Positions 4,081 through 27,946 of a DNA stretch of 64,000 nucleotides are shown here, piece after piece. The position numbers and the translations under genes are program-made. Below the pieces are notes generated by a model. It was not told the origin of the DNA. It worked only from the letters and a program-made list of their open reading frames with translations, and searched no databases. The stretch covers positions 1 to 64,000 of the forward strand of contig CAIUZK010000109.1 of NCBI GenBank assembly GCA_903903635.1. Direction: 5' to 3'. Source of the stretch: an uncultured Bacteroidota bacterium. GTDB taxonomy: Bacteria > Bacteroidota > Bacteroidia > Chitinophagales > Chitinophagaceae. The number at the start of each line of letters is the position of its first letter. Position 1 is the stretch's first letter.

Positions 4081-4215
4081 TCAACCTATCAACCTCTCAA
4101 CTTTTTAACCTTTCAACCAATCAACTTATACTATCAACTTATCAACCTATCAACCTATCAACTTATCATCCAATCAACTTATCAACCTATATCAACAAAT
4201 CAACAAATCAACTAG
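4065..4215. repeat. Degenerate ATCAACYT-type tandem repeat
   Basis: Run of ATCAACTT, ATCAACCT and TCAACAAA variants, matching the cleaner array at 525-577. Confidence 0.7.
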
Positions 4216-4301
4216 TCAGGTTAATCAGCAGATCAGACAACATTCGCGATTGAAATGTTTTTGAAGTTAAATTGAAATATATAATTGCAAGATTTTTTTT
4301 C

Positions 4302-4309
4302 TATATTTG
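4302..4309 (+). promoter_or_regulatory. Candidate Bacteroidota -7 element (TAnnTTTG)
   Basis: TATATTTG 33 nt upstream of the ATG at 4343, in an AT-rich leader. Confidence 0.4.
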
Positions 4310-4342
4310 TAAAGAGCAAAATGGAAGTCAACTAACTCTAAA

Positions 4343-8696: not shown

Positions 8697-10694
8697 CTAT
8701 ACTCCTTTATACGCTACCTGTTTGCCAATAGAAGTCAATCCCAGCAACGCATCGGAGGTGCTGAATATTTTATTCAGGTAGCTCAATTCCGATTCACATC
8801 CTTTTGCTTCTTCTATCAGTTTATCAGCAATAGATACTGCAATGGGAGCCTTTCTTTTAAGGGTCTTAAATATTTTCTCAGCCTCGTCTGCGCCAATACC
8901 TTCTGAAGAAAACGTGTGGCCAAGAATTTGCTCCGTAGTATTATTGATAAAGAACTGCTCAATATTCTTCCACTTACTATTCAGATTGACCGTAGCCTGT
9001 GCTGGTATGGAAACCTTACCTGAGATCATACCAAAAAAATCATCGGTAGAAATCACCTTATCCACAAGGCCCACTTCACAGGCATCTTTAGCGCTCAGCA
9101 TTTTACCGGACAATACAAGATAACGGCCCATTGGCTTACCAGTCCTTCTAGCGCTTCTCTGTGTTCCACCCAGGCCCGGATAAATTCCAATACCTGTTTC
9201 AGGGAAAGCCATTTGCGCCTTTGGCATGGCAAGTACAATATCTGCACATAATGCCAGTTCCAGCCCACCCCCAAGCGCTAATCCATTAATAACAGCCACT
9301 ACCTTCTTCTTCGATTCATCGATCTTCTTAAATACACCCTGCCCATAAGCTGTAAATGTTTCAATATCATTTATCTTATTAGCCTTTATGTTTTTTACGA
9401 AGAATTTAATATCTGCACCGGCCACAAATGCCTTACCTGCGCCGGTAATAAAAATCGTATCAATAGCAGCATCCTGATCAGCCAATGCAAACTGTTCATC
9501 AAGTTGCTTCATTACTTCCTCATTCAGTGCATTCAGGTCCTCGGGCCTGTTCATGGTCAGCACAGCCACATTTCCCTTTTTCTCCAGGTTCACATACTGC
9601 ATTTGCCAGTGTTCCGTTCCAATGGCCAGAGGCAGGTGCATCTGGTATAATCCGGCTATTTTATGCACCAGGAACCAAACTTTCTCAGTACCATAATACT
9701 GCATCAGGTCTATTGGGCCACGACGCCATTTCAAACCAATTTTGGCGCCACGGTTTATGTCGGCTGCTGTACAAACTTTTTCATCCAGCAGTTGAGAACA
9801 AACAAAGAATACCACTCCCAGCATTCGCTCGGTAATTTCCTTTTTCACATCTTCATCCGGATTTACATCCCCTTCCAGGTTCCATTGCTTGCCCGATAAT
9901 GCCTGCTCTTTAAGCTTTTCACTTACCGCATAAAGACTGCCGTAGCGTTCCAGTGTTTTCTCAGCGTGATATGCAACAGGTACTCCTGTGGCATTCATCA
10001 AGGCGAAGGGGCCCATTCCTATGCCAAACAGGTCCATGCATACTGCATCTATGGTGGCAATATTTGCAATGTGCTCATCCAGCAAACGGGCTGATTCATT
10101 CAACCAGGGAACAAAAAACCGGTTTACCACAAAGCCGTAAGAATCCTTGCAAACTATGGCATCTTTACCCGACAGCATAGAAAATGCTTTCACTGATTCT
10201 ACCACATCAGCAGATGTTTTTTCACCCGGAATAATTTCCACCAGCCTGTTCTTTGCAGCATGATAGAAATAATGCAAGCCTACAAATCTTTCAGGTTTAA
10301 CAACCGATTCAGCCAGTTCAGTTACAGAGAACGAAGAAGTATTGGTAGCTAAAATAGTATGTTCATTTACTATAGTACTCAGTGTTTTGAACAGATCACT
10401 TTTTGCATTGAAATCCTCGTATATGGCCTCCACAATAAGGTCGCACTTTTTAAGATCGTTAAGATCATGCGTACCCATGATGTTGGAAAGGTAACCATCT
10501 ACCTGTTCGGCAGTAAATACCTTCTTCTCAACTCCATCCAGCAGCATCTTTGTGATATTATCTATACCCCTCTTTACAAACGACTCTTCTCTGTCTGCCA
10601 GTAATACGATAAAATTCTCCTGGGCAAATTTTTGCGCTATTGCTGCGCCCATTGTACCTGCCCCTACTATCCCAACTGTTTTAATCGTTGTCAC
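8697..10694 (-). CDS. Bifunctional 3-hydroxyacyl-CoA dehydrogenase (N-term)/enoyl-CoA hydratase (C-term)
   Basis: N-terminal VGIVGAGTMGAAIAQKFAQ (NAD site); C-terminal crotonase domain VLTMNRPEDLNALN...AGKAFVAGADIKFF...NGLALGGGLELALCADI...FPETGIGIYPGLGGTQR. Confidence 0.9.
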   Translation of the reverse strand: MTTIKTVGIVGAGTMGAAIAQKFAQENFIVLLADREESFVKRGIDNITKMLLDGVEKKVFTAEQVDGYLSNIMGTHDLNDLKKCDLIVEAIYEDFNAKSDLFKTLSTIVNEHTILATNTSSFSVTELAESVVKPERFVGLHYFYHAAKNRLVEIIPGEKTSADVVESVKAFSMLSGKDAIVCKDSYGFVVNRFFVPWLNESARLLDEHIANIATIDAVCMDLFGIGMGPFALMNATGVPVAYHAEKTLERYGSLYAVSEKLKEQALSGKQWNLEGDVNPDEDVKKEITERMLGVVFFVCSQLLDEKVCTAADINRGAKIGLKWRRGPIDLMQYYGTEKVWFLVHKIAGLYQMHLPLAIGTEHWQMQYVNLEKKGNVAVLTMNRPEDLNALNEEVMKQLDEQFALADQDAAIDTIFITGAGKAFVAGADIKFFVKNIKANKINDIETFTAYGQGVFKKIDESKKKVVAVINGLALGGGLELALCADIVLAMPKAQMAFPETGIGIYPGLGGTQRSARRTGKPMGRYLVLSGKMLSAKDACEVGLVDKVISTDDFFGMISGKVSIPAQATVNLNSKWKNIEQFFINNTTEQILGHTFSSEGIGADEAEKIFKTLKRKAPIAVSIADKLIEEAKGCESELSYLNKIFSTSDALLGLTSIGKQVAYKGV

Positions 10695-10725: not shown

Positions 10726-11499
10726 TTAATTATTGCGCCATACCGGCTTTCTCTTCTCCAAAAAGGAATTGATCCCTTCATTGGCATCAAAAGTATTCAT
10801 CAGCTCATTCACATACATATTTTCAAGTACAGGCAGGTATTCCGATAAAACCTTATTGAACTTTACTCTTGATGCTTTTACGGCAAACCTTAAGCTGGAT
10901 GCACTTTTAGGAATAATCTGATGTTCAATCCATTTGTTCACACCCGATTCAAGCTCAATAGTATCGGCAAAAACCTCGTTGATGAGCCCAAATGCTTTCC
11001 CTTCATCTGCCGAGAAAGTCAAACCGGTAATGATGAGTTCTTCCGCTTTTGCCAAACCTATCTTCTCCGATAAAATCAAAGATGCAGGTGGAGGGAACAC
11101 GCCCAAAATAATTTCAGGCTGACTGAACTTCGCACCTTTCTCGGCAAAAAGAAAATTACACATAATGGCTAGTTCCATACCACCACCCAGGCATTGACCT
11201 GATATTTTAGCCAATGTAGGTATGGCAAGGTCTTTCAACTTAATAAAAAGCTGATGGAATGAATGGATCATTCCCGCTGCTTGTGCCTTTTGATGCTCTT
11301 CCACACTTGCCCCGAATGAAAAGTGCTTTCCGGCACCTTCAAATGTGATCAGTTTCAACTCATGCATGGCACTGAAGGTGTCCAAAGCGGCCATCAGTTC
11401 GGCCATCATGCCGCTATCTATCACATTCCCTTTGCTGTTATCCATGATAACCTGGGCAATAGCGCCGCCATGCGAAAAATTGATCTTTATTTTTTCCAT
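10726..11499 (-). CDS. dch: Cyclohexa-1,5-diene-1-carbonyl-CoA hydratase (dienoyl-CoA hydratase), crotonase family
   Basis: GKHFSFGASVEEH, SGQCLGGGMELAIMCNFLFAEKGAKFSQPEIILGVFPPPAS; lies between oah and the HAD/ECH gene. Confidence 0.82.
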   Translation of the reverse strand: MEKIKINFSHGGAIAQVIMDNSKGNVIDSGMMAELMAALDTFSAMHELKLITFEGAGKHFSFGASVEEHQKAQAAGMIHSFHQLFIKLKDLAIPTLAKISGQCLGGGMELAIMCNFLFAEKGAKFSQPEIILGVFPPPASLILSEKIGLAKAEELIITGLTFSADEGKAFGLINEVFADTIELESGVNKWIEHQIIPKSASSLRFAVKASRVKFNKVLSEYLPVLENMYVNELMNTFDANEGINSFLEKRKPVWRNN

Positions 11500-11502
11500 A
11501 AT

Positions 11503-12603
11503 CTAAACTGTTTGTTTTTGATATTGAGGAGAAATGGTATGGTGTAACTCTTCATTCCACTCATGTCCTTCTGCCAGCAATTGCCTCAGGAGCACAAAAT
11601 CAACTTCCCTGTTTTCTTTTGGTCCATCGTTAAATGCCTTGAAACCTGCTTTTGCTTCAGACATCATATTCAAAGCAAGCCATTCCCTGCTGCCTTCCTT
11701 GTTCTTATCCCAATGCTCCAGCTTGAATTTACGAACCTCAGAAATTGTCTTATTCATACAATTAGGGAAGGTGTGCAGTATTTTGGCTATAAGGCTATTT
11801 ACGGCTTTATCAAGCATAGCTAAATCAACTTCTGCCTTAGCAACAATTTCTTTTGCCTTAGCCAGTTCTTCTCCTGTTTTGGCAGTACCAAAAACTATAC
11901 GGCCATACTCATCAGTCACCCTTTCAGTTACAACCATTGGGTTGGCAATGAACTTACCATCTAGCTTAAGCACTGGTGCAATATCTGTAAGCACTCCAAA
12001 ATAATATGCCTGGTGAGCCGACCATGGCTCGCAAAGAGTAAGTGAATACATGGCTCTCTCAACACCTACGAATAATGGTAAAAAGTCGGTTGCGCCTCCG
12101 ATAGGAGCACTACCATGTTTAGGACCTGCCTGACCCAGGCGGGCCATATCGCTGGCTATACTGAAATCGCAAGCCATACCTATCTCCTGGCCACCACCTA
12201 CACGCATACCATTGATACGGCATATCACCGGTTTTTCGCACATAAGGATAGCAGAAACCATATCATTGAACAGGCGCATATACTGAGAATACTCCTGCGG
12301 ATTGCCTGAATAATATTCGGCATATTCCTTGGTATTGCCACCTGTACAGAATGCTTTATCACCTACTGCGGTAAGCACAACTGCCACCACACTCCGGTCG
12401 TTGGATGCAGTGCGGAAGGCCATAATAATCTCCTTAATAGCAGCAGTAGTATACGAGTTGAATTGCTTTGGGTTATTCAGAATGATCCAGGCATTAAATA
12501 GCCCGTTTTTTGCGCTTCCGTCTCTATCAAGACAAGGCCTCTTTTCAAATAATATTTCTTTAAATTCTATCGTTACGAGGTCATGATTTTTTAAGTTGCT
12601 CAT
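11503..12603 (-). CDS. oah: 6-oxocyclohex-1-ene-1-carbonyl-CoA hydrolase (BamA/Oah)
   Basis: 366 aa, longer than usual crotonases; AWIILNNPKQFNSYTTAAIKEII...GDKAFCTGGNTKEYAEYYSGNPQEY...NGMRVGGGQEIGMACDFSIASDMARLGQAGPKHGSAPIGGATDFLP, characteristic of BamA/Oah. Confidence 0.93.
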   Translation of the reverse strand: MSNLKNHDLVTIEFKEILFEKRPCLDRDGSAKNGLFNAWIILNNPKQFNSYTTAAIKEIIMAFRTASNDRSVVAVVLTAVGDKAFCTGGNTKEYAEYYSGNPQEYSQYMRLFNDMVSAILMCEKPVICRINGMRVGGGQEIGMACDFSIASDMARLGQAGPKHGSAPIGGATDFLPLFVGVERAMYSLTLCEPWSAHQAYYFGVLTDIAPVLKLDGKFIANPMVVTERVTDEYGRIVFGTAKTGEELAKAKEIVAKAEVDLAMLDKAVNSLIAKILHTFPNCMNKTISEVRKFKLEHWDKNKEGSREWLALNMMSEAKAGFKAFNDGPKENREVDFVLLRQLLAEGHEWNEELHHTISPQYQKQTV

Positions 12604-12612: not shown

Positions 12613-13680
12613 TTAATTGTTAAAATCTGGTACAAGCACTGAGCGCTTCACATATTTATGCTCCAGTGTATTTTTGAAAACTTCATTGATCTGCGACATC
12701 GGGAAGGTCTGCACAAACTCATCAATATGTAGCTGGTCATTAGCCACCAATTGCACTACCTCCGGATACAACTCCGGTTTACAACCCCATGTACCGATTA
12801 GTTTGGCATCAAATGCCATCAGGTTGCTCAAACGCACCTCAACCTTATCCATTGTAAAACCTACAACTGATAGTGTAGAAGCAAACGTAATCAGGTTAAA
12901 AGCCACCTCCTGTCCTGCCTTGGTTCCCGACATTTCAAATATCTTCCAGCAGAACGGAGAAGCTTTCAGCTCTTTTACAATACCCTTTACTGCATCTTTT
13001 ATTTCTTTAACTCCGAGACCCTTAATGTTGAGAATAGCATCTATACCATTCTCTTTAGCAAGATTCAGTTTCTCATCATTTACATCCAGTGCAATTACTT
13101 TTGCCCCGGCTATTTTGGCAAGCTGGGCACCATACTGACCTACCCCGCCTACACCTATTACAATGGCCAGATCGCCAGCTTCAATTTCAGCTTTCTTTAT
13201 TACCTGGTAAGGGGTAGAAACCGCATCAGCTATAATCGATAACTGCTCAAGGCTGTATTTCTTCAAAACCTTATCAGGCACAGGGCACAAAAATTTTGCC
13301 GGTACTATGATATGCGATGCAAAACCACCATCAAAATCATTACCCGGCATCAACTGGCTACGGCATATATTGCTGCGGCCTTTTCTGCATAGTTCACATT
13401 CGCCACAAGGCAATACAGCCGGAATAATTACATTTTTATTTAACCACTCATCAGGTCCGTTAACTACCCTGCCACTTATCTCGTGGCCCAGGGTTAATGG
13501 TAATGCATGCTTGGTTTGCACTCCATGATGCCAGAAGCTGATATCAGTATGGCAGACACCACAGCCTGCCACTTTAACCAATGCTTCGCCATCTTTCAGT
13601 ACCGGAACCGGTTGTTCAACAAGAGTAAACTCTTTATTCAACTCAGTCATTTGCCATTTATAAATTTTCTGATCGGCCAT
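12613..13680 (-). CDS. had: 6-hydroxycyclohex-1-ene-1-carbonyl-CoA dehydrogenase (Zn-dependent alcohol dehydrogenase family)
   Basis: GVCHTDISFWHHGVQTKHALPLTLGHEISGRV, PAVLPCGECELCRKGRSNICRSQLMPGNDFDGGFASHI, VIGVGGVGQYGAQLAKIAGA; starts 9 nt upstream of oah. Confidence 0.88.
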   Translation of the reverse strand: MADQKIYKWQMTELNKEFTLVEQPVPVLKDGEALVKVAGCGVCHTDISFWHHGVQTKHALPLTLGHEISGRVVNGPDEWLNKNVIIPAVLPCGECELCRKGRSNICRSQLMPGNDFDGGFASHIIVPAKFLCPVPDKVLKKYSLEQLSIIADAVSTPYQVIKKAEIEAGDLAIVIGVGGVGQYGAQLAKIAGAKVIALDVNDEKLNLAKENGIDAILNIKGLGVKEIKDAVKGIVKELKASPFCWKIFEMSGTKAGQEVAFNLITFASTLSVVGFTMDKVEVRLSNLMAFDAKLIGTWGCKPELYPEVVQLVANDQLHIDEFVQTFPMSQINEVFKNTLEHKYVKRSVLVPDFNN

Positions 13681-13682: not shown

Positions 13683-14942
13683 TTATAAATTTATGTTCTC
13701 AAATAATATTGCATTTCCCTGTCCGCCACCTATACAGGCAGAAGCTATACCGTACCTTACTTTCCGGATGTTCATTTCTCTGGATAAGGTAAGCGATAAC
13801 CTGAGACCACTGGCTGCTAATGGATGACCATAAGCAATAGCGCCACCGTTCACATTACATATGTTCCTGTCCAGCCCAAGTTCACGCTCGCAACCAATAA
13901 ACTGGGCTGCAAATGCTTCATTGATCTCAAACAGTCCAATGTCACTTATGTTCAGGCCGGTCATTTCCAGCAACAGCCTGATAGCAGGTACAGGGCCTAA
14001 ACCCATTACCTTGGGATCAACAGCACTGGTTGCAGAAGCAACCACCCTGCTAAGTGACTTCAGATTATTCTTTGCCAGGTAGGCCTTATTGGCAATTACA
14101 GCAGAAGCCGCGCCATCTACCATTCCACTTGAATTGGCAGCCGTTTGCACACCTTCTTTATCAAACACCGTTGGCAATTTTGCCATCACATCCAATGTAG
14201 AAGAACGGATATTTTCATCTGCAACAAAATCAACCATTTTCTTGGGCAGGGAAACTTTTCTGGGCTTACAACCATCTGCTTCAAAAACCATACTGTTCAT
14301 GGCTACGATCTCATCCTTCAGATAGCCTCTTTCTGTAGCTGCAATGGCCCTGTCAACCGATAGCTTACCAAATACATCTGCCTCCTGCCTGGTGATTCCA
14401 TGTTTTTTGGCCACATTCTCAGCAGTGCAGCCCATAGGCACAGCGGCAGTATCATTCAACGCTTCCCATAAAAAGTCTTTGAACTCAACACGACCCAGGG
14501 CATAACCCATACGGTTGCCATAACTTACTGTTGGCGCCAGCGACATACTTTCTGCGCCACCGCAAAGTGTAACATCAGCCTTGCCCAGGGTGATCTGATC
14601 AGCGCCGGCGGTGATAGTCTCGAATCCTGAACCACAGATCCTTTGCAACATTACTGCTGGAACGCCTTCAGGAACGCCTGAATAAAGACCTACATGCCGT
14701 GGGTAAAAATAAGAGTCATAAGAGCACTGCCCTATATTAGCCATCATTACCTGGTCAATATCCTTGGGCGAGATGCCGGACTTTTCCATAGCCGCCCTGC
14801 TGGAATAAATAGCAAGATCGGTAGGTGATATATTGGCCAATGTACCGCACAATTTACCAAACGGTGTTCTGGCTCCGTTCACCAGGTAGATATCATCGTA
14901 CATTATTCCAATGCCTTTTTCTTTATTATGGTATGCTTTCAT
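13683..14942 (-). CDS. Thiolase (acetyl-CoA acyltransferase)
   Basis: LVNGARTPFGKLCG, QRICGSGFETITAGADQI, GGAESMS, NVNGGAIAYGHPLAASGLRL, ASACIGGGQGNAI. The true start may be the internal Met at 14903. Confidence 0.9.
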   Translation of the reverse strand: MKAYHNKEKGIGIMYDDIYLVNGARTPFGKLCGTLANISPTDLAIYSSRAAMEKSGISPKDIDQVMMANIGQCSYDSYFYPRHVGLYSGVPEGVPAVMLQRICGSGFETITAGADQITLGKADVTLCGGAESMSLAPTVSYGNRMGYALGRVEFKDFLWEALNDTAAVPMGCTAENVAKKHGITRQEADVFGKLSVDRAIAATERGYLKDEIVAMNSMVFEADGCKPRKVSLPKKMVDFVADENIRSSTLDVMAKLPTVFDKEGVQTAANSSGMVDGAASAVIANKAYLAKNNLKSLSRVVASATSAVDPKVMGLGPVPAIRLLLEMTGLNISDIGLFEINEAFAAQFIGCERELGLDRNICNVNGGAIAYGHPLAASGLRLSLTLSREMNIRKVRYGIASACIGGGQGNAILFENINL

Positions 14943-14951: not shown

Positions 14952-16802
14952 TTATTGAACTTTAGATAATTCTTTTGCATCAGCCTGTTCTGCAGCAGGC
15001 TCAACATAACTTTGTTTAGCAATAATTGCTGCCCCGTAAGAAACTGTGTACTGAGGATGGTCCACAGTCATGATCTCCTTGCCAAATTTCTGTGTAAGAA
15101 TATTACTCAGGTACGGATGATAGGCAATAACACCACCTATAATATAAATAGGCAGCCCCGGCACCATTTTCATTTTGGCCACTTTATTTGCTATGGATAT
15201 ATAAATACCACGCGCAATATCCTGAACAGGCATTCCATCGAATACCCAGTTCATAATTTCCGTTTTAGCAAATACTGTACAGAAACTATTCAGCTCCTTA
15301 TCATATTCTGAGTGAGAGGCCAGTGTGCTCATATCGGTATCGTTGATCCCCGCCCTTTCAGATATTTCAGAAAGGAAAGCGCCGGTACCTGCAGCACACT
15401 TATCATTCATATAAAAATTAGAAACGTGATTTTCTACATCGCACTGAACGATCTTGATATCCTCACCTCCAATGTCTATTATATTTTTTGGCCCGCTGAA
15501 AAACCGGGATGCTCCTGCGGCGCCGCAGTTGATCTCGGTCTTGATGATGTCGGAATCAGTAAAATGTTTACGACCATAACCTGTGGCACAACTGTATTTA
15601 ATATTAAACACACCATGAATGGCCTGAAGCACATTCTTCATTGCCTGGCGATCTTTATTCAATGTCTGAAGAAGATATCTGAATACAGTTGTCCCCTGAT
15701 CATCTGTTACAGTAAACTTAGTATAAGCAGAACCAAGGTCTATACCCAGAAAACAGTTCATGCCTTTATAAAACAAAGATGAACGATCCTTCTCTACCAG
15801 ACCTTTATTTATGATCTTTTTATTTACTTCTCCCGTCACCCCGGGCATCCTGGAAAGCACATTTTTATTGGTCATGGCTTTTACCATATTGGTAAAAGAC
15901 AGGTTCAAAGAAGTCTTTACATAATGCTTCTTGCCATACTCAACAATCTTCCCGTTGAAATAATCAATCTCAGTCTGCCTGTTATTGATAATATCAACAG
16001 CAAGCGACGGAAAGTGGTCACCTCCGTTTTTAAGATACCGCATACACTTTCTTACGAAATCATCCGGGAATCTGATCTTCTCCTTTTCAGCCACATCAAT
16101 ACCCTCATTGATGATCTGCTCAATAAGTTCGCAGGTATCAGCATCTGCAATAGCCTCAGCCATGGTCAGCCGACCAACGCCGCACAATGCGCTAAGAGAT
16201 GCATTCAGAATTGTTTTTTCCCATGAGCGTTTTACCAACTCAAATGAGTCGATATTCTGTGTTTTAAAATCTACACTATTCAGAATATCTGCAAATTGCT
16301 TAGCTTGCTCTCCTCTTCTGTCATCTACAGGGCCAATATAATTTGGCGGTGTAAAAAAGGACACCCTGATGTTATTGGGCGAAACAGTATTTCCCGCATA
16401 ATTGATGATCATGCGCATGGTACGCAACTCTCCAAAACCAGGAATCAGTAATTCTTCAACATCTATCCCGTTTTGTGCCGCAATAACAGAAAGCTTTTCC
16501 GACTTCAGTACTTCTGCTTCTCTTACTGCGCCGGGAGTATGGTACGACTTAAGGGCAAATACCAGAAAATCAAGATCCATCGGAGCCATTTCCTCAACTT
16601 TGCTATAAACCCTTTCAAATTTGGTTACCGATTGGAAAACGTGCTGGAGTATGATTCCCTCTTCCCTGATTTTCTTAAGTTTAAATTCATCCTTATCGCA
16701 GATGGCTACATCACATCCTGCCTCAACCAGTTTCACCGCAAGGATCATTCCCACAGGACCTAATCCAATGATGCCAACTTTTATTTTTTTTACTTCGCTC
16801 AT
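14952..16802 (-). CDS. Fusion protein: ketopantoate reductase (ApbA/PanE)-like domain plus BcrA/D-BadF-HgdC family ATPase
   Basis: Residues 1 to about 340: KVGIIGLGPVGMILAVKLVEAGCDVAICDKDE...NGIDVEELL...SWEKTILNASLSALCGVGRLTMAEA. From Met348: MNCFLGIDLGSAYTKFTV...IDIGGEDIKIVQ...NDKCAAGTGAFLSEISERAG...NSFCTVFAKTEI...IIGGVIAYHPYL...VSYGAAIIA. One uninterrupted ORF. Confidence 0.88.
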   Translation of the reverse strand: MSEVKKIKVGIIGLGPVGMILAVKLVEAGCDVAICDKDEFKLKKIREEGIILQHVFQSVTKFERVYSKVEEMAPMDLDFLVFALKSYHTPGAVREAEVLKSEKLSVIAAQNGIDVEELLIPGFGELRTMRMIINYAGNTVSPNNIRVSFFTPPNYIGPVDDRRGEQAKQFADILNSVDFKTQNIDSFELVKRSWEKTILNASLSALCGVGRLTMAEAIADADTCELIEQIINEGIDVAEKEKIRFPDDFVRKCMRYLKNGGDHFPSLAVDIINNRQTEIDYFNGKIVEYGKKHYVKTSLNLSFTNMVKAMTNKNVLSRMPGVTGEVNKKIINKGLVEKDRSSLFYKGMNCFLGIDLGSAYTKFTVTDDQGTTVFRYLLQTLNKDRQAMKNVLQAIHGVFNIKYSCATGYGRKHFTDSDIIKTEINCGAAGASRFFSGPKNIIDIGGEDIKIVQCDVENHVSNFYMNDKCAAGTGAFLSEISERAGINDTDMSTLASHSEYDKELNSFCTVFAKTEIMNWVFDGMPVQDIARGIYISIANKVAKMKMVPGLPIYIIGGVIAYHPYLSNILTQKFGKEIMTVDHPQYTVSYGAAIIAKQSYVEPAAEQADAKELSKVQ

Positions 16803-17380: not shown

Positions 17381-18616
17381 TTAACTGTATACTTTCGAAC
17401 TCTCTATCTGCTCAATAAATGTTTCAATCTTGGTAATGCTCTGCCCTTCTGAGTAGAATCTCAGATCGCACAAATCGCCCTCAATCACCAATGTAGGTAT
17501 GCCTAGTTTTTCCCTCAAACGCTGTGGCATTCCAAAACGGGAATTGGAGTTATTCGCACAGGTTTTTGCATCATGGAAAATGATACCATCAATACTGAAA
17601 TCATGTACCAGACCGGAGAGAATACGTTCTTTAGCGCTCTCGCTGCGGTTGATGAAAATCTCAGTATACGCTTTGGCTGATGATTCAAACGGATGCCGCT
17701 CATCAAAAGCATCGAACACCCAGCTATTGCAATAGGTAGAAGCAACGATTGCAGCATTGTTTTGAATGAACAATTCTGACAGTGGCCTTAACTTGCCCCA
17801 TATAGGCATACCATCCCAATAAATCCTGCATTTCTCAACTTCAAGGAATCCTATTCCCTTTGTCACATTACCCTGCAGTTCATCCAGCAACATCTGGTAG
17901 TAATCTTTTGCTATCTGAGTACCCCTCAGTACAACTATTGGCCCCATATGTATGGTGGCATCAAAGAAACTGATAGGTGCAGGAGATACTCTTGCAGTCC
18001 ATAACACTTTCTTCCACAGTTCTGTTGCTTCTTTGCTGAGTCTTAAGGTTTCTCTGAACTTATCAATATCAAACTTCTGACCGCTTACCTCTTCGCAGAG
18101 CGGAACCATATTTTTGAATTGAGCAGCCACATCATCTATCTCCTCCTGGCCTACTTCATCCATATGCCTTGGGGGAGTAATACCAAATACCGGAACCCCT
18201 AATTCCTTGCCAAAATAATTGAACCAATCCTGAACTTCCCTGCACTGATTCGTATTATATACAATAATATCTGGTTTTGGTGGACCATTCAGGCCATAAT
18301 GTTTGGTAAGTGGTGTTTCTTTCTTTAAGTAAGATCCAATATCCGCAGTAAGGTAAGAACAGATATCATTAGAATAACCAAGAGTTGCAGATTCAGGAAT
18401 CAGATCGCCTGCTGTGCGCGAAGTACCCAACAAAGCGCCATGGTTCTCAGGAAAATGCACTTCAAATCCGAAAGACCGCAGCAGTTCAGCAGGGCCAACA
18501 CTTGTACACCATGCATACTTTTTGGTGGTATCTTTCATACCAAGAAAATAATTACTCATTATTTCCTTCAATTTTTTTGCAGATTCTATTTTATACATAA
18601 AAACTCTATTAATCAA
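17381..18616 (-). CDS. 2-hydroxyacyl-CoA dehydratase D/benzoyl-CoA reductase (HgdB/BcrB/BcrC) family protein, paralog outside bcrCB
   Basis: Probable cluster cysteines at SNDICSYLTADIG, VYNTNQCREVQDWFNYFGKELGVPVFGITPPRH and FHDAKTCANNSNSRFGMPQRLREKLGIPTLVIEGDLCD. The true start may be the internal Met at 18598. Confidence 0.82.
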   Translation of the reverse strand: MINRVFMYKIESAKKLKEIMSNYFLGMKDTTKKYAWCTSVGPAELLRSFGFEVHFPENHGALLGTSRTAGDLIPESATLGYSNDICSYLTADIGSYLKKETPLTKHYGLNGPPKPDIIVYNTNQCREVQDWFNYFGKELGVPVFGITPPRHMDEVGQEEIDDVAAQFKNMVPLCEEVSGQKFDIDKFRETLRLSKEATELWKKVLWTARVSPAPISFFDATIHMGPIVVLRGTQIAKDYYQMLLDELQGNVTKGIGFLEVEKCRIYWDGMPIWGKLRPLSELFIQNNAAIVASTYCNSWVFDAFDERHPFESSAKAYTEIFINRSESAKERILSGLVHDFSIDGIIFHDAKTCANNSNSRFGMPQRLREKLGIPTLVIEGDLCDLRFYSEGQSITKIETFIEQIESSKVYS

Positions 18617-20738
18617 TTTTTATACGTGCATCCACTACATATACCTTATCATTAATGGCTATGATGGGATTCATATCCATTTCTGTGATCATCGGGAAGT
18701 CGGTAACCAATTTCGAGATCCGCTGAATGATATCTATAACCTTTTCTTTATTGATTCCTTTTTCACCCCTTACACCATCAAGCAACCTGGTGGCCTTGAT
18801 AGAGGAAAGCATCTCACGCGCTTCCACGTCTGTCACAGGAGCGATCTTAAATACAACGTCTTTTAATACCTCTACATAAATACCACCCAGGCCAAACATT
18901 ACCAGATGACCTAAACCAGGTTTGGTACTTACTCCGGCAATCAATTCCTTGCCACCGGGCAAAAATTTCTGCACCAGGTATTTGAGGCCCTTATCACCAA
19001 ATGCATCCCGCATTTTTTCGGCAGCAACCCTTACTTCTTCTGCACTCTTCAGGTTGATTACAACCCCACCCATATCACTCTTATGAACTATTGCAGCCGA
19101 TTCGGCTTTCAATACCACAGGGAAACCGATGTTGATCGCTGCATTCTCAGCTTCATAAATATCGTTTGCCAGCCACCATTCCGGTACAGGTATGCCATAT
19201 GCAGTAAGCAGATCATAAACTCTGTCTGCAGTCAGGTAGGATCTGCCTTCCTTTTTCGACTGATTCAGGCTAATCTCTGCAATTTTAGTATTCATGACAT
19301 TAAGTAGTGCAGGCTCACCTATATCCCTTGCTCTTAATTTACTATAACGGTACAAAGCGCCAAGCGCCTTTGCTGCTGTTGTAGGGAAACTATAACAGGG
19401 GACTCCGCCATCCTTCAATATCTTAGCTGTTTCCTGAAAACGCTCAAGACTCATATTGGTCATGAAATTGCAGATGATCGGCTTCTTCCTCAGATTGCTA
19501 ACCTCAACTATATTCCTGGCAACCTCATTAGTATCGGTAAAAGGAGCAGTAACAAAATTGATATAGATAGAATCAATGGACTCTTCATCCATCAATACAT
19601 CCATTGCACTCCTGAAATGAGCGCCTCCACCTGTAGCCACCACATCAATAGGATTACCAATAGTTGCTTCGGGTAACATGGTAGCCTGAAGAACTGCTTT
19701 AGCTCTGTCTGATAATGCCGGCAACTGAAGTCCTGCGCTTATCAATTCATCGGTGGCTATTACAGCGGGGCCGCCGGTGTTGGTTATTATACCCACCCGG
19801 TTGCCTTTAGGAAACGGCTGTGTAGCAAATGCCATTGCCACCTGGCACATTTCCTCTTCATTATTAAATGCAAGAATACCGGTCTTTTCAAATATCAGTT
19901 CTGTAGAAATATCCACTCCGGCCAATGAGCCGGTGTGTGATGCTGCAGCCTTGGCGCCTTCTTCGGTCCTTCCGGCTTTCATTGCCAGAATGGGTTTCCG
20001 ACGGGTGACCTTCCTGGCTACCTCCATGAAATCAAGCGGATTGGAAAGCCCTTCGGTATACAGGATAATTGCTTTAGTCTGGTCGTCTTCGCCATAATAT
20101 TCCAGAACATCCGGAATGGATACGTCGCAGGCATTACCATTCGATGCATAAAACCTCATGCCTATTTCAAGGTCATAAAGGCTTTGCATAATAAAGGCGC
20201 CAACCCCACCACTTAAAGCAACAATTGAAATACCTCCCGGTTTTGGAAATGTAAATGTAAAATCGCAGTAAGCCTTATAGTCAGGATCAGTATTAATAAT
20301 ACCCTGACAGTTAGGGCCAAAAATCCTGATGCCATATTGTTTGGCTTTGCTCAGGAACTCTTTTTGTAATGCTATACCCTCATCACCCATTTCGCTGAAA
20401 CCGGCTGAATTGATGATAACTGATTTGATTCCTTTCTTACCGCAATCTTCAATTGCTTGCGGAACCATTTTAGCAGGTATGATCACATGAGCCAGATCGA
20501 TAGTACCAGGAACATCGAAAATTGTAGGGTAGGCTTTTATTCCTCTTATCTCATCCATTTTGGGATTAATGGGATAGATATCCCCTGTAAACCCAAAATG
20601 AACAAGATTCTTTATAATCACATTGCCAATTGACAATTCTTTTTGCGAAGCGCCAATAATTGCAATTGACTTAGGCTTAAAAAGTGTATCCAGTTCGTGA
20701 ACTGAATTCTTCACAGGATCAAGTACTGCTGATTCCAT
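18609..20738 (-). CDS. ADP-forming (NDP-forming) acyl-CoA synthetase, fused alpha/beta type
   Basis: LFKPKSIAIIGASQKELSIGN...YPINPKMDEIRGIKAYPTI...GPNCQGIIN...ALSGGVGAF...SHTGSLAG...FEKTGILA...ITNTGGPAVIATD; C-terminal ATP-grasp PVVLKAESAAIVHKSDMGGVVINL...MNPIIAINDKVYVVDARI. Confidence 0.9.
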   Translation of the reverse strand: MESAVLDPVKNSVHELDTLFKPKSIAIIGASQKELSIGNVIIKNLVHFGFTGDIYPINPKMDEIRGIKAYPTIFDVPGTIDLAHVIIPAKMVPQAIEDCGKKGIKSVIINSAGFSEMGDEGIALQKEFLSKAKQYGIRIFGPNCQGIINTDPDYKAYCDFTFTFPKPGGISIVALSGGVGAFIMQSLYDLEIGMRFYASNGNACDVSIPDVLEYYGEDDQTKAIILYTEGLSNPLDFMEVARKVTRRKPILAMKAGRTEEGAKAAASHTGSLAGVDISTELIFEKTGILAFNNEEEMCQVAMAFATQPFPKGNRVGIITNTGGPAVIATDELISAGLQLPALSDRAKAVLQATMLPEATIGNPIDVVATGGGAHFRSAMDVLMDEESIDSIYINFVTAPFTDTNEVARNIVEVSNLRKKPIICNFMTNMSLERFQETAKILKDGGVPCYSFPTTAAKALGALYRYSKLRARDIGEPALLNVMNTKIAEISLNQSKKEGRSYLTADRVYDLLTAYGIPVPEWWLANDIYEAENAAINIGFPVVLKAESAAIVHKSDMGGVVINLKSAEEVRVAAEKMRDAFGDKGLKYLVQKFLPGGKELIAGVSTKPGLGHLVMFGLGGIYVEVLKDVVFKIAPVTDVEAREMLSSIKATRLLDGVRGEKGINKEKVIDIIQRISKLVTDFPMITEMDMNPIIAINDKVYVVDARIKID

Positions 20739-20749: not shown

Positions 20750-21589
20750 TTATGCTACGACAGCCTGTTTTTCTTTCAACTTAAAATGACGGTATCCGCC
20801 CCACAATGCAGCGCCTATGCAGCCCGCATATATGGAATCAGGATGAGCCATGATAACAAACTTCTTGCTTCCTTCTTTCAGGGTTTCGTCAATAGCCTGT
20901 ATCATACCTGTGTTCAGCGCCATGCCTCCGGTAAGTACAATAGGCGACTCTGCTTTAAGCGATCCTAAAAGCTTGATAACCCTGGATGCTATCGAAAGAT
21001 GGATTCCTTTAATAATGTCAGGTGTTTTAATCCCTCTGGACACCATGTTGATTACATCTGTTTCGGCAAGTACCGCACATATACCCGATGAAATTTCAGG
21101 ATTGTTTGACTGTAGTGATACTTCACCTACTTCTTCAATACTCAATCCAAGATAGCGGGAGATATTCTCGAGAAACTGGCCAGAACCTGATGCGCACTGA
21201 CCGGTCATTTTATAATCTTCCACCCTTGCACCTTCATTGATACGAATGCAACGAACATACAATGCACCCAGATCCACTACAGTACGTGCTTCAGGAAAGA
21301 AGAAATGAGCGCCACGCGCATGCGTTGTCATACCATAAAAATGGCCGCGTTTACGCTTTACAAGGTCACCCTCTCCTGTCGATGCCAGGTAAGCAATATC
21401 TTCATACTTGAGGTTATTTTTATCAAGCATGATCTGTACCATTTCATCGGCCACCTGCGTGGGATTCCTTTTACGGATCTTCTCGGTGTGTTTATCTATT
21501 ATTTTAGGATTATCTGAATATTCCATCAATACCAGCTTGATAAAATTGCTGCCCACATCAATCCCCATCGTATATACTGTCTCAGACAT
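20750..21589 (-). CDS. bcrD: Benzoyl-CoA reductase subunit D (BcrD/BadG), BadF-type ATPase
   Basis: MGIDVGSNFIKLVLMEY, ASTGEGDLVKRKRGHFYGMTTHARGAHFFFPEARTVVDLGALYVRCIRI, TGQCASGSGQFLENISRYLG, SSGICAVLAETDVINMVSRG, IVLTGGMALNTGM, DSIYAGCIGAALWGGYR. Confidence 0.9.
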   Translation of the reverse strand: MSETVYTMGIDVGSNFIKLVLMEYSDNPKIIDKHTEKIRKRNPTQVADEMVQIMLDKNNLKYEDIAYLASTGEGDLVKRKRGHFYGMTTHARGAHFFFPEARTVVDLGALYVRCIRINEGARVEDYKMTGQCASGSGQFLENISRYLGLSIEEVGEVSLQSNNPEISSGICAVLAETDVINMVSRGIKTPDIIKGIHLSIASRVIKLLGSLKAESPIVLTGGMALNTGMIQAIDETLKEGSKKFVIMAHPDSIYAGCIGAALWGGYRHFKLKEKQAVVA

Positions 21590-21626: not shown

Positions 21627-23048
21627 TTATGCTACTACTTTCTTTGCGCTTGGAAGATCGGCTTTGATATTACGGCGGGCAAACATAGCACCACCCAGGG
21701 CTCCCATAAATATGGAGTCCGTGTGAATGTTTATCTTAATGTTGTCTCCGTAATTTTCCTTTACCAACTGGGTAAGATATTTGATAACTGCCTGATTTCT
21801 GGCCACGCCTCCGGTAAAGGTAAATTCATTGAATACCCCACCCGACCTGGCTATCAGCGACATTGCACGCATAATAATTGCCTTGTGCAATCCGCCAAGA
21901 ATATCGGCTCTTTTTTCACCCATGTTGGTAAGCTCTCTCAGTTCAGCGCCAGCAAATACGGTACAGGTAGAACAAATTGTTACTTCCTTCTCTGCCTGCA
22001 TGGCCATAGGGCCTAATTCATTGAGCGAAATACTCATTTCATCAGCTATATATCCCAGGTACCTGCCGCAACCCGCGGCACAACGGTCGTTCATCTGGAA
22101 ACTGGTTACCAGTCCGTATTTATCAACCTGTATGGCCTTTGTATCCTGTCCGCCAATATCCAGTACAGTCCTTGTTTCAGGGAATACCGCATGAGCGCCG
22201 AACGCATGGCATAAAATTTCCGATCTGATACATTCCTGAGGGAACGGAAGCAAAGCGCGACCATAGCCTGTACCCGTCATGTTTTCAATATTGAAATCAA
22301 TATTGGCCACCTCATCAATTCTGTCGCGAAGCGATTCTGAAACATTTTTGAAATCGCCTTTCAGCAAATACATTTCAGCATCAAAATTGGCCTCAGACTC
22401 AATTGGGATATTCTCCGACTGTTCAGGCAGGTTCTCATATTTGTCTTTGAGCAGATCCATTGCCTGTGTTATCAGGGAATGGAATTCAAATTGAACCACC
22501 TCATTTTCTGCCGCTGTAATACTCTTATCCCAGATGGTCATCAATGGCTCAAAAAGAGCAATGTCGAATTTGTTTACCTCTTCATTATATTTTTCGGATA
22601 CAATATCCCTGAAGAACTGGTTTTTATCTCCCAGGTTCTCATAGATATACTGGTGCTTGATCTTGGGCTTAATGGACTTGCGAATCAGTCGCAGATGATC
22701 GATCATTACCAGACGCCTTTCACCTTCAAAATGGTTATAGCAGGTTTTCAGCAGTTCATCACCCAGTTTGTCAATTCTTACTTTAAATTGCTCATACTGA
22801 AATACGCTTTCCAGATCAGACAGGTATTTTCTGTATTGTGGTTTAGATGCTATTTCATTGGCAAGATTTTTCTTTAAGATAGAAAAACGTGCATTGTAAA
22901 TTGCTTCCATTTTGGCTATATCGGCCGCCACAGAATAATTTGCGCGGGTATTGGTTATTCCGCGGCCTATGATTTCATCCTGCTCATTGATGATCACAGC
23001 TTTCGAGGTTGTTGATCCCAGATCAATTCCTAAGTAGTACTTGCTCAT
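21627..23048 (-). CDS. bcrA: Benzoyl-CoA reductase subunit A (BcrA/BadF), long form with central insertion
   Basis: YYLGIDLGSTTSKAVIINE...GTGYGRALLPFPQECIRSEILCHAFGAHAVFPETRTVLDIGGQDTKAIQVD...NDRCAAGCGRYLGYIADEM...TICSTCTVFAGAEL...FTGGVARNQAV. The roughly 470-aa length with a central insert fits the Thauera type. Confidence 0.92.
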   Translation of the reverse strand: MSKYYLGIDLGSTTSKAVIINEQDEIIGRGITNTRANYSVAADIAKMEAIYNARFSILKKNLANEIASKPQYRKYLSDLESVFQYEQFKVRIDKLGDELLKTCYNHFEGERRLVMIDHLRLIRKSIKPKIKHQYIYENLGDKNQFFRDIVSEKYNEEVNKFDIALFEPLMTIWDKSITAAENEVVQFEFHSLITQAMDLLKDKYENLPEQSENIPIESEANFDAEMYLLKGDFKNVSESLRDRIDEVANIDFNIENMTGTGYGRALLPFPQECIRSEILCHAFGAHAVFPETRTVLDIGGQDTKAIQVDKYGLVTSFQMNDRCAAGCGRYLGYIADEMSISLNELGPMAMQAEKEVTICSTCTVFAGAELRELTNMGEKRADILGGLHKAIIMRAMSLIARSGGVFNEFTFTGGVARNQAVIKYLTQLVKENYGDNIKINIHTDSIFMGALGGAMFARRNIKADLPSAKKVVA

Positions 23049-23074: not shown

Positions 23075-24376
23075 TTAAGCTGTAACTTCCTCCTGTGCCA
23101 GGATCACTTTACGCTGACCAAGCATCTGGAAATATGATTCCAACCTGTTTTTAATATTAGCATAGGAAAAATAACGTGGGTCAACAAGATCGCTTTCTAT
23201 AAAGCCAACCGGCACACCGCAACGTTGCTCTACCTCGCGCATCATCAGCAACTGACCCGCTGAGAATGAATTACAACTCTTAATTGAATTGATTAAGAAA
23301 CCATCTGCTTTGTATTCTTTGATGTAATGTTCAATCAGATCAACACGCTGTGGCAGATTGAGGTTGGTATAGCAACCCATGCAGTATTTAGCAAGGCTTT
23401 CCAATGGTTTTCCGGGCTCATGCCTGAATCCCTGGTCGTAAAGACCACCCACTTTTGTATAAGTAGAGGCAACAATTACTGCCCCCATATCGTAGAATAT
23501 TTTCCAGAATTCCCTGAAGTTGGTCCAGTTTGGCGGGCCTTCTACCACAAGCCTGAACTTCTCTTCCTTCATTTCACCCTCAGGAGTTACAGGACAAAGT
23601 CCCTGACTCATACGGTCGGTTACTTCTTTGTACAACTCTTCATAATAATGAACAGCTTCCTCAGTACCACGGAATGCGGTATTCAGTGGTCCCATATAAT
23701 ATACACCAGCAAAATAAGAATCGATTGGAGAAGGCCTGTTTTTAGCTGTTTCCAGTACTTTCACCCATAGATCTTCTGCTTTCGCTGCATTTTCCAGCAT
23801 TTTGTTCAGTCTGTTATAATCCAGCTTTTTACCGGCAACTTTTTCCATTTTTGGTATAACATCTTCTTCAAGTTGCTTTACCATATATTTCAATTGTTCC
23901 TCGGTAATAACTCCATCTTCCTGGTAAGGTGTGTGGAGCATAGCGATTTCAACACCGGGATATAACCTTTCCAGGTTTTCAAACCATTTAAGGAATGTAA
24001 AACAGCCGGTATAGCTCAATAACAGCAGATCCGGGTCGGGTAGTTTTTCACCGGTTGGGCCTATGTTACCATTAAGCATCATACCGATATCGCACTTCAC
24101 ATAAGTACATACATCTTCCGAAAATCCCATTTTTTCAGCATCCTTGATGTAAGATCCTGATTTTTTACGCATACCCGATTGCAGGGCATTGATCTCAGGG
24201 TAAACCGGCAGCATATCCATTGCCAGTATCAATTCAGTGAGATTACCGGGAACAAAAGTGTACACTACTTTTTTACCGTTTGCTTTCGCATTGCTCAGTT
24301 CGGTAAAGAGATTGGCTAGCATCTCTTTTTGAATGACCATGCTTTTTTCCTTTATTGCTTCTTTTGGATCGCTCAT
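23075..24376 (-). CDS. bcrB: Benzoyl-CoA reductase subunit B (BcrB/BadE)
   Basis: YTFVPGNLTELILAMDMLPVYPEINALQSGMRKKSGSYIKDAEKMGFSEDVCTYVKCDIG...DLLLLSYTGCFTFLKWFENLERLYPGVEIAMLHTPYQEDG...VEGPPNWTNFREFWKIFYDMGAVIVASTYTKVGG...SIKSCNSFSAGQLLMMREVEQRCGVPVGFIESDLVDPRYFS. Confidence 0.92.
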   Translation of the reverse strand: MSDPKEAIKEKSMVIQKEMLANLFTELSNAKANGKKVVYTFVPGNLTELILAMDMLPVYPEINALQSGMRKKSGSYIKDAEKMGFSEDVCTYVKCDIGMMLNGNIGPTGEKLPDPDLLLLSYTGCFTFLKWFENLERLYPGVEIAMLHTPYQEDGVITEEQLKYMVKQLEEDVIPKMEKVAGKKLDYNRLNKMLENAAKAEDLWVKVLETAKNRPSPIDSYFAGVYYMGPLNTAFRGTEEAVHYYEELYKEVTDRMSQGLCPVTPEGEMKEEKFRLVVEGPPNWTNFREFWKIFYDMGAVIVASTYTKVGGLYDQGFRHEPGKPLESLAKYCMGCYTNLNLPQRVDLIEHYIKEYKADGFLINSIKSCNSFSAGQLLMMREVEQRCGVPVGFIESDLVDPRYFSYANIKNRLESYFQMLGQRKVILAQEEVTA

Positions 24377-24418: not shown

Positions 24419-25597
24419 TTATACCCACAACTTGATTGAATCTGAGAAAGTACCTGCCTGCTCTTTAATTACTTTGAATTGTCCGGTATTTTCATGGAAT
24501 TGAAAATTGATATGGGCAATACCCGCATCATCACATGCCTTCTGAAGATCAGGCCTGTCGAGCAGGGCCGGATCACAAAAACTTGCAGCACAGAATATCA
24601 CACCATCAGCTTTTCTATCTCTTACCTGCTTTACAAGGCGTGCGCTCTTCGGATTGAAAATGTCATAAACCGCTGAAGAAGGTGCACTTTGTGTCAGGAA
24701 AGAATCAACAACAGCATTCAACGGATCACTGGTGGTGCTATCTATATTACCCTGTATCCACCTGGAACCCAGCATAAAGTCGTCATCTACGATATAGCAG
24801 CCCGCCATTTCTATTGATTTGATAAGCCCGATCGGAGGTTGTTCGCAGAACGCCCCTGATATCACCACCCTGATGTTATCCATTGGCTCACCGAAATCTT
24901 CACCGAGAAGATTTACAATCTCTTCAAGCATTTCATTATGCTTTTCCACATTGATCACCATTCCGGCCCTGATAATATGATATACATCAACAGCCGATAA
25001 ACGCCAAGGGAATTCCTCCCTTATATCATATATTTTCTCAATCAACTCCCTGTTCTTATTATACAAGGCAATTGAATTATTGAGATGAGCAGATATGATC
25101 TTATGATCATTTATCTTGAACATATCACTTATGATAGTTTCAAGTAGTTCCCTGTAGAAAGTACCGCCAATGTGTTTTTCGAAATTCTGCGGATAATCGA
25201 AATACCTGCTGAATCCTCCCTTTTTTGCCAGTTTGAACATTCCGCTCAGGTTACGGACACAATCACATATTGACGGGAACAGAAACCCATCAAAATCATT
25301 TAGGTTGTCATCCAATGCCATTTCTATCACTCCTCTGGGAAGATGGCATATATAGGATTGGTAGTAGGCATCACCTTTTATTATCTGCTTCCTGTCCCCT
25401 ACCCCCATAATTCCGACCGCAAGTCCATTCGCGGCATGGATTATTTCTCTGGGAACATAGATAGGCAGATAACCTACCAATAGTCTGAACTTCGATTTTG
25501 CCTTCCATTGTTTCGCGTATGTGAAATTAAGATCAAATGCGAGGGATTTGCATTCGTCCAACAAGGAGGTCAAGCGCTCTGGTGCTTGTTTTATCAT
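24419..25597 (-). CDS. bcrC: Benzoyl-CoA reductase subunit C (BcrC/BadD)
   Basis: VGYLPIYVPREIIHAANGLAVGIMGVGDRKQIIKGDAYYQSYICHLPRGVIEMALDDNLNDFDGFLFPSICDCVRNLSGMFK...RYFDYPQNFEKHIGG...VVISGAFCEQPPIGLIKSIEMAGCYIVDDDFMLGSRW...FCAASFCDPALLDRPDLQKACDDAGI. Confidence 0.92.
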   Translation of the reverse strand: MIKQAPERLTSLLDECKSLAFDLNFTYAKQWKAKSKFRLLVGYLPIYVPREIIHAANGLAVGIMGVGDRKQIIKGDAYYQSYICHLPRGVIEMALDDNLNDFDGFLFPSICDCVRNLSGMFKLAKKGGFSRYFDYPQNFEKHIGGTFYRELLETIISDMFKINDHKIISAHLNNSIALYNKNRELIEKIYDIREEFPWRLSAVDVYHIIRAGMVINVEKHNEMLEEIVNLLGEDFGEPMDNIRVVISGAFCEQPPIGLIKSIEMAGCYIVDDDFMLGSRWIQGNIDSTTSDPLNAVVDSFLTQSAPSSAVYDIFNPKSARLVKQVRDRKADGVIFCAASFCDPALLDRPDLQKACDDAGIAHINFQFHENTGQFKVIKEQAGTFSDSIKLWV

Positions 25598-25808: not shown

Positions 25809-26426
25809 ATGGAATTTTTTTCGCATACAAATAAAATAGCATGCATTATCCTTTCCGGTGGTTTATCAACCAGAATGAATACGCACAAAGCCTTACTCAG
25901 GTTTTCTGAATCCCGGAATTTTATGGAGCATATTATTGAGGTTTACAATGAAGCTAACATCGATCAGATAATTGTAGTAAAGAACCATGAAATTGTTTTT
26001 TCGCCCATGTTAAAAAACAGACAAAAAGTTATTATTGTAAACAATAGCCATCCCGAAAAGGGCCGGTTATATTCTATCCGGTTAGGACTGTCCGAATTAA
26101 AACATGCCGGCTACTGCTTTATCCAGAATATCGACAACCCATTTGTTACCGGTTCCCTTCTGAAGGAGTTACTCGACAATAAAAATTCCGAAGGCAGTAT
26201 TGCCCCGGTTAATGCTCATGGGGGTGGGCATCCCGTACTTATTTCTTTACCGGTAATGAATAAAATCAGATCAATAGATAATTGGGAACTTACCCTCCGG
26301 GATGTTTTGAGTGATTTCAGCAGAAATAAACTAATTACCGGCGACGAAAGGTGTACCCTTAATATCAACGACCCTGGCGACTACCAGAAATATTTTTCAC
26401 AGGAAAGCTTAAATACAACAGCGTGA
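25809..26426 (+). CDS. MobA/MocA-like nucleotidyltransferase (molybdenum cofactor cytidylyltransferase family)
   Basis: ACIILSGGLSTRMNTHKALLRF, QNIDNPFVTGSLLKEL, GGGHPVLIS, LNINDPGDY; overlaps the XdhC-like gene by 4 nt. Confidence 0.8.
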   Translation: MEFFSHTNKIACIILSGGLSTRMNTHKALLRFSESRNFMEHIIEVYNEANIDQIIVVKNHEIVFSPMLKNRQKVIIVNNSHPEKGRLYSIRLGLSELKHAGYCFIQNIDNPFVTGSLLKELLDNKNSEGSIAPVNAHGGGHPVLISLPVMNKIRSIDNWELTLRDVLSDFSRNKLITGDERCTLNINDPGDYQKYFSQESLNTTA

Positions 26427-27930: not shown

Positions 27931-27946
27931 CCAAACCACAAAGAAT

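Follow-up and report, generated by a model that had tools for sequence, protein, structure and literature searches.

The 64,000-nucleotide stretch of an uncultured Bacteroidota genome analysed here (the window) encodes, in one uninterrupted frame of 616 codons, a ketopantoate reductase (KPR)-type dehydrogenase fused to a BadF/HgdC-type activator ATPase. The fusion gene is part of a class I benzoyl-CoA reductase (BCR) operon with the order BcrC, BcrB, BcrA, BcrD, CoA ligase, HGDx, fusion, thiolase, Had, Oah, Dch and FadB-like (Table 1), HGDx being a third protein of the HGD-D family. Both domains and the operon enzymes are of known kinds; what appears to be new, and undescribed as far as the literature was searched, is the fusion architecture, the way in which ligase and tail are arranged, and the addition of a third HGD-D/activator set to a BCR operon. 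We tentatively favour, at somewhat below an even chance, a feeder function of this set, in which the KPR domain would produce an (R)-2-hydroxy acid, the ligase its CoA ester, and HGDx together with the ATPase domain would dehydrate the latter; aryl-lactates from phenylalanine and tyrosine would be the likeliest substrates, feeding (4-hydroxy)benzoyl-CoA to the reductases.

Table 1. Positions of the fusion gene, its domains and the neighbouring genes in the window.
Feature	Position	Strand	Basis or remark
Fusion protein, KPR-type dehydrogenase + BadF/HgdC-type activator ATPase, 616 aa	14952..16802	-	ORF, Pfam, NCBIfam, relatives
KPR (ApbA/PanE, D-2-hydroxyacid dehydrogenase) domain, residues 8-312	15867..16781	-	Pfam, alignment, structure match
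Linker, residues 313-350, holds Met348; residues 303-322 at pLDDT <50	15753..15866	-	AlphaFold, alignment
Activator ATPase domain, residues 351-597, with cluster Cys469 and Cys508, and E447	15012..15752	-	Pfam, NCBIfam, alignment, structure match
BcrC	24419..25597	-	TIGR02263 over cut-off
BcrB	23075..24376	-	TIGR02260 over cut-off
BcrA	21627..23048	-	best match TIGR02259, 442.7 bits (cut-off 578)
BcrD	20750..21589	-	TIGR02261 over cut-off
ADP-forming acyl-CoA synthetase, AcdAB type	18609..20738	-	replaces AMP-forming ligase of other loci
HGDx, third HGD-D protein, HadB-like, constant fusion partner	17381..18616	-	likely true start 18598, MYKIES...
u160, stand-alone C-terminal domain of AMP-forming acyl-CoA synthetase; conserved C33, C73, C75, C85, C89	16874..17356	-	model, alignment
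Thiolase	13683..14942	-	TIGR01930 over cut-off
Had, 6-hydroxycyclohex-1-ene-1-carbonyl-CoA dehydrogenase	12613..13680	-	TIGR03201 over cut-off
Oah, 6-oxocyclohex-1-ene-1-carbonyl-CoA hydrolase	11503..12603	-	TIGR03200 over cut-off
Dch, dienoyl-CoA hydratase	10726..11499	-	best match TIGR03189, 219 bits (cut-off 292)
FadB-like 3-hydroxyacyl-CoA dehydrogenase/enoyl-CoA hydratase	8697..10694	-	profile matches
Divergent MobA-like, XdhC-like, SDR and hemerythrin-like genes	25809..28486	+	flank 4-hydroxybenzoyl-CoA-reductase-like enzyme in relatives

A fusion of two operon partners

The initial annotation had read the frame as a KPR-like dehydrogenase joined to a complete BadF/HgdC-type ATPase, and profile searches bore this out: ApbA (59.3 bits, residues 9-158), ApbA_C (94.1 bits, residues 191-310) and BcrAD_BadFG (114.2 bits, residues 352-595) all passed the Pfam gathering cut-offs, as did TIGR00745 (152.5 bits; cut-off 141.35) and TIGR00241 (159.4 bits; cut-off 125.4) those of NCBIfam. 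The two-domain layout stood, but not the boundary drawn at residues 347/348, as the KPR domain already ends at about residue 312 and is followed by the linker. The AlphaFold model that had been suggested as a check on this linker (49 sequences) gave both domains with confidence (mean pLDDT 83), the linker at a pLDDT below 50 and a pTM of 0.51, and predicted no fixed contact between the domains; by this model, the linker is flexible. Separate production of the ATPase from an internal start at Met348 can be ruled out as the rule among homologs, since this residue is not conserved and is replaced by T, G, Q, V, H, I or L in most of the other fusions aligned.

Single-ORF relatives of the fusion were found in over 90 Bacteroidota MAGs, the sampled sets partly overlapping. 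The frame is intact in eight genomes including that of the window (seven further ones among the 60 nearest) and in about 75-80 loci of the genome collection, which yielded 103 relatives altogether. A sample of 398 genomes of the order contained 15 carriers besides the window genome, one of these fusions being a fragment at a contig end, and 10 carriers were found among 197 genomes of the class to which an Ignavibacteriae MAG belongs. That sequencing or assembly might have merged two neighbouring genes has a practically negligible probability: we found nothing to support it, and the same open frame recurs in scores of independent MAGs whose fusions are 46-86% identical to the window protein, which excludes a local error or frameshift at the junction. 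Proteins sharing the architecture are thus many, as the initial annotation had allowed for, but an assigned function was found for none of them.

Five genomes of the Ignavibacteria-type class encode KPR and ATPase as two separate genes, which share the BCR operon in at least four of the five. The order is BcrCBAD, ligase, HGDx, KPR, ATPase and thiolase at two loci (L117, L118), and KPR, HGDx and ATPase followed by BcrCBAD and ligase at a third (L119); at L113, genes of an enzyme resembling 4-hydroxybenzoyl-CoA reductase (Hcr-like) stand between KPR and ATPase, and in the fifth genome (G570) the parts are scattered over different contigs. The window protein thus goes back to the joining of two genes of one operon, and the fusion cannot be essential to the chemistry. 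Phylogenetic trees are consistent with one fusion event or with several.

Both domains retain their active-site residues

In the KPR domain, K85, N111, K196, N200, S204, S266 and E278 are invariant among the aligned fusions, and K196, E278, N111, N200 and S266 align with the catalytic Lys and Glu and the Asn/Ser substrate ligands of 3wfi/2ew2. Foldseek returned D-mandelate dehydrogenase (3wfi, and 5x20 with NADH) and ketopantoate reductases, the NADH-dependent D-mandelate dehydrogenase being structurally closest; most members have an acidic residue at position 36, which lines up with the NAD-type Asp of 3wfi. The window domain shares the family's fold, cofactor loop and catalytic residues and is set apart by its fusion to an activator ATPase and its place inside a BCR operon. 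Judged from these residues, the active site is intact and the domain is a putative 2-oxo acid reductase. The KPR-related family includes an NAD-dependent D-mandelate dehydrogenase that is active on benzoylformate; the D-mandelate dehydrogenase relative accepts 2-ketoisovalerate as well (PMC4230899). The initial annotation had also considered nicotinamide-linked control of the activator. The physical fusion would be in line with the KPR domain sensing nicotinamides and regulating the attached ATPase, but such a role is very unlikely given that its catalytic residues are all kept, that no confident interdomain contact was predicted and that related genomes encode the parts separately.

The ATPase domain belongs to the acyl-CoA dehydratase activase family by its PF01869 and TIGR00241 matches and by structure, with HadI (4eht), MbdQ and HgdC among the Foldseek hits. 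Both cluster cysteines noted at the outset are present, and C469 (NDKCAAGTG) and C508 (NSFCTVF) are invariant in 78/78 and 77/78 aligned fusions, respectively, the sole exception being a gap in one alignment row. All 78 fusions carry GGED, with an invariant E447, in place of the GGQD of HadI, HgdC, MbdQ, DCCP-R and BcrA, and thus depart from a D-x-G-G-Q-D motif that is common to the references but is not a curated defining feature; the Q is also found in the most divergent unfused relative (L119). A further substitution is K513, where HadI and HgdC have Glu (CTVFAESE), and together with E447 this may represent a charge swap. We considered and rejected the domain as a third BCR ATPase, as it scored far under the equivalog cut-offs of BcrA (TIGR02259, 96.2 against 578 bits) and BcrD (TIGR02261, 63.7 against 312.85 bits). 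Its tree position beside HadI/DCCP-R is weak (support 64/90) and carries no claim.

The operon and its link to BCR

The initial annotation had overlooked both the complete BCR operon around the gene and the spread of the fusion through scores of genomes. BcrB, BcrC, BcrD, Had and Oah passed their equivalog cut-offs, while BcrA and Dch were best matches below theirs. Across the loci compared, the operon order is found repeatedly and the ligase-HGDx-KPR/ATPase cassette does not vary, HGDx lying directly upstream of the fusion, or separated from it by u160 only, in nearly all intact loci. Genes for 2-oxoacid:ferredoxin oxidoreductases occur in several fusion loci; an aminotransferase or a CoA-transferase was not found within the cluster. 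None of the plasmid records covers 80% of the query, the best one listed reaching about 55%.

Several variations of the neighbourhood were seen. A hemerythrin-like gene (27917-28486, plus strand, in the window) recurs beside BCR loci and perhaps serves oxygen protection. A TnaA/TPL-like (tryptophanase/tyrosine phenol-lyase) gene directly follows the fusion in two loci (L042, at 3985-5382, and L078). In seven others (L031, L025, L034, L036, L053, L069, L093), hydantoinase/caprolactamase-like A and B genes replace Thiol-Had-Oah-Dch downstream of the fusion, some with RidA-like, TrpB-like or acyl-CoA dehydrogenase genes, possibly pointing to indole/tryptophan degradation.

Among the 398 genomes sampled in the order, BcrB was found in 16 and the fusion in the identical 16, which span ten genera and six families, although shared descent and block transfer of the operon weaken this co-occurrence as a statistic. 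The set persists where the locus is broken up, as at L056, where BCR and HGDx are on different contigs. In 38 of 40 fusion genomes, the HGD-D genes number exactly three, namely those of BcrB, BcrC and HGDx; the remaining two have fewer, and their loci lie on short contigs. A fourth HGD-D gene or a dedicated beta subunit for HGDx was found in none of the 40, so that only BcrB and BcrC are available. Known dehydratases are heterodimers, and HGDx would accordingly have to act as a homodimer or borrow BcrC.

HGDx, a HadB-like protein with an extra cysteine

By profile score, HGDx is closer to HadB (197 bits; structure 3o3m) than to MbdO (158) or BzdO (101). It keeps the three catalytic [4Fe-4S] cysteines C86, C125 and C353 and the active-site Glu E57, and in the tree forms a deep branch in the catalytic-subunit clade, apart from BcrB. 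Its S39 is shared with HadB only among the aligned references; in BzdO, however, Ser44 hydrogen-bonds the catalytic Glu (PMC11971306), so that the alignment may overstate how specific this Ser is to dehydratases. An invariant extra cysteine, Cys296, occupies the position of Cys263 of BzdN, a double-cubane ligand (PMC11971306), but an equivalent of Cys293 is missing, which makes a full double-cubane cluster unlikely. The pairing of one HGD-D protein with one activator ATPase and no second subunit resembles DCCP/DCCP-R (YjiM/YjiL); in the alignment to DCCP, four of the six double-cubane cysteines correspond and C37 is one position off. With one ligand cysteine lacking and 52.5 bits against a cut-off of 350 for NF040772, we rejected HGDx as a double-cubane protein. 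The window BcrC and MbdN, for their part, have no Cys at the aligned BzdN ligand positions Cys36 and Cys263, and BCR- and MBR-type enzymes may thus lack the [8Fe-9S] cluster seen in BzdN.

Given the missing second subunit, Cys296, the GGED motif and the strict coupling to BCR, there is real scope for HGDx and the fusion ATPase to act as an accessory or second reductase of BCR, for instance with substituted benzoyl-CoAs, in cluster repair or in electron delivery, with KPR serving a core-pathway step or being structural. The perfect co-occurrence with BCR across 398 genomes, exactly one HGDx per BcrB/BcrC pair, and the combination of a cysteine at the BzdN/DCCP ligand position with the absence of a beta subunit, as in homodimeric DCCP, would all be in line with this. 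A KPR dehydrogenase with an intact 2-hydroxyacid active site, on the other hand, has no known role in BCR, the well-studied class I BCRs function with just four subunits (PMC11971306), HGDx scores nearer to HadB than to BcrB/MbdO, and one of the six double-cubane cysteines has no counterpart. On balance, we consider an accessory function unlikely, if deserving of serious attention.

The ligase and its cysteine-rich tail

In many loci, the gene preceding HGDx encodes an AMP-forming acyl-CoA synthetase of about 580 aa with five conserved cysteines in its C-terminal domain. In the window and in loci resembling it, this enzyme is exchanged for an ADP-forming synthetase, and the Cys-rich tail alone survives as the 160-aa u160; a model of u160 (pLDDT 90) found its match in the C-terminal domain of adenylating enzymes. 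At first a candidate for a new small protein, as it was unclassified even at E 10, u160 turned out to be this ligase tail. Its five conserved cysteines suggest a metal site, and its retention after loss of the ligase suggests that it has a role of its own.

A candidate route from aryl-pyruvates to benzoyl-CoA

As far as can be read from their sequences, the ligase, the HadB-like protein, the HadI-like activator and KPR form a complete set for conversion of a 2-oxo acid to a 2-enoyl-CoA. In the feeder route that we favour, the KPR domain would reduce a 2-oxo acid with NADH, aryl-pyruvates derived from phenylalanine or tyrosine being the likeliest candidates, and the adjacent ligase (AMP-forming with its Cys-rich tail, or AcdAB plus free u160) would convert the resulting (R)-2-hydroxy acid to the 2-hydroxyacyl-CoA. 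A dimer of the ATPase domain, with a [4Fe-4S] cluster held between the C469/C508 pairs, would then inject one low-potential electron into HGDx, which, by homology to HadI/HadB, would eliminate water to yield a 2-enoyl-CoA such as cinnamoyl- or 4-coumaroyl-CoA. The FadB-like enzyme and the thiolase would release benzoyl- or 4-hydroxybenzoyl-CoA, the latter would be dehydroxylated by the Hcr-like enzyme, and BcrCBAD would reduce the ring. The direction of the route, the partner of HGDx and the part played by u160 are our inferences; the fusion as such we propose to be a convenience rather than a mechanistic need.

The genome content of the carriers bears on this proposal. A benzoate-CoA ligase over the cut-off was found in none of 33 carrier genomes, whereas an Hcr-like enzyme was present in 34 of 34, often near the BCR genes. 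TIGR03194 and TIGR03195 were the best matches for its alpha and beta subunits, but the scores stayed below the cut-off for all three models of the TIGR03193/4/5 set (807 of 995, 163 of 258 and 208 of 405 bits). In this molybdenum enzyme, seen for instance at L098 (8506-12236 of G000:C218) and L099-L106, the gamma and alpha subunits are fused into one chain of about 930 aa, and its genes often lie beside the MobA-XdhC-SDR-hemerythrin genes and BCR. 4-Hydroxyphenylpyruvate dioxygenase, encoded in 30 of 31 genomes, would provide an alternative fate for tyrosine under air. Oxidation of arylpyruvates by indolepyruvate oxidoreductase was rejected as the main route, because none of the 31 genomes had a match over the cut-off; a lower-scoring relative was present in 12.

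Several lines of evidence argue for the feeder route: the complete and invariant active-site residues of KPR and ATPase, the match of KPR to NADH-dependent D-mandelate dehydrogenase structures together with the HadB-like character of HGDx, a constant cassette whose four parts stay in one operon in the unfused relatives, the occurrence of BCR and fusion in the same 16 of 398 genomes along with the lack of a benzoate-CoA ligase and the ubiquity of the Hcr-like enzyme in the carriers, and the TnaA/TPL-like genes that follow the fusion in two loci. Related precedents exist in the literature. A Flavobacteriales koll-22 MAG (Bacteroidota) expresses peptidases, peptide uptake and benzoyl-CoA degradation (PMC8099898), and a path from 2-oxo-3-phenylpropanoate via phenyllactyl-CoA dehydratase to cinnamoyl-CoA and benzoyl-CoA has been considered a possible route in another organism (PMC13416013). 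Against the feeder route stand the lack of a dedicated beta subunit and the extra invariant Cys296 of HGDx, a strict 1:1 coupling to BCR that exceeds that of a usual peripheral feeder, the lack of aminotransferase and CoA-transferase genes in the cluster, the Hcr-like subunits falling below their family cut-offs, and the aerobic tyrosine route offered by 4-hydroxyphenylpyruvate dioxygenase. The channelling of a 2-oxo acid via its 2-hydroxy acid into a radical dehydratase, as the initial annotation had suggested, gives the best fit to the operon, with a HadB-like HGD-D protein and a CoA ligase adjoining and KPR nearest to D-mandelate dehydrogenase; the identity of the substrate is the inferred part.

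A dehydratase route for a non-aromatic 2-oxo acid would draw on the same HadB/HadI-like parts, for example to take 2-oxoglutarate to glutaconyl-CoA and so into the glutaryl-CoA branch, or to use a branched-chain acid as electron sink. That the lower pathway ends at glutaryl-CoA, that the D-mandelate dehydrogenase relative takes 2-ketoisovalerate (PMC4230899) and that several loci contain 2-oxoacid:ferredoxin oxidoreductase genes are consistent with such a route, yet it leaves the absolute linkage to BCR and the missing benzoate-CoA ligase unexplained, and we regard it as rather improbable.

Relation to known systems and implications

The cassette has its closest overall parallel in the (R)-2-hydroxyisocaproyl-CoA dehydratase system LdhA/HadA/HadI/HadBC of Clostridioides difficile, which likewise arranges a D-2-hydroxyacid dehydrogenase, CoA activation, an ATP-driven activator and an HGD-D dehydratase in series, with the fusion ATPase corresponding to HadI and HGDx to HadB. 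In the window cassette, by contrast, the dehydrogenase belongs to the KPR family and is joined to the activator, a ligase stands in place of the CoA-transferase, a HadC-like partner is absent and all parts are tied to a BCR operon. The phenyllactate dehydratase FldABC/FldI of Clostridium sporogenes resembles the proposed route in the step from aryl-lactyl-CoA to aryl-acryloyl-CoA, a likeness of function; Fld, however, has two HGD-D subunits and a CoA-transferase and serves Stickland reduction rather than the supply of benzoyl-CoA. Compared with the class I BCRs (BcrCBAD, BzdNOPQ, MbdONPQ), whose clusters hold two HGD-D proteins and two ATPases, the window operon has a canonical BcrCBAD and adds a third member of each of these two protein families, neither reaching the BCR equivalog cut-offs. 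The open-licence papers searched contained no description of the dehydrogenase-activator architecture, of the cassette or of both protein names together, an absence that is of course no proof of novelty. The wider reading, a hitherto undescribed Bacteroidota route from aryl-pyruvate via (R)-aryl-lactate, aryl-lactyl-CoA and aryl-acryloyl-CoA to (4-hydroxy)benzoyl-CoA and into the class I pathway, in which HGDx would represent a novel branch of the BCR/HAD family made up of a single gene and marked by its additional Cys at a cluster position, acting as a homodimer or borrowing BcrC, with its activator fused to the dehydrogenase that makes the substrate, is in our judgement possible rather than probable.

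Class I BCR operons are spread across scores of Bacteroidota-lineage MAGs, and all sampled genomes of the order that carry BCR have, in addition, a third activator and a third HGD-D protein that are not known from the studied BCR clusters. The fusion and its unfused relatives define the set of proteins to be studied together, and the HGDx system offers a compact test bed for how a single BCR/HAD subunit works without its usual partner. If the proposed route holds true, it would link protein degradation in Bacteroidota directly to anaerobic ring reduction.
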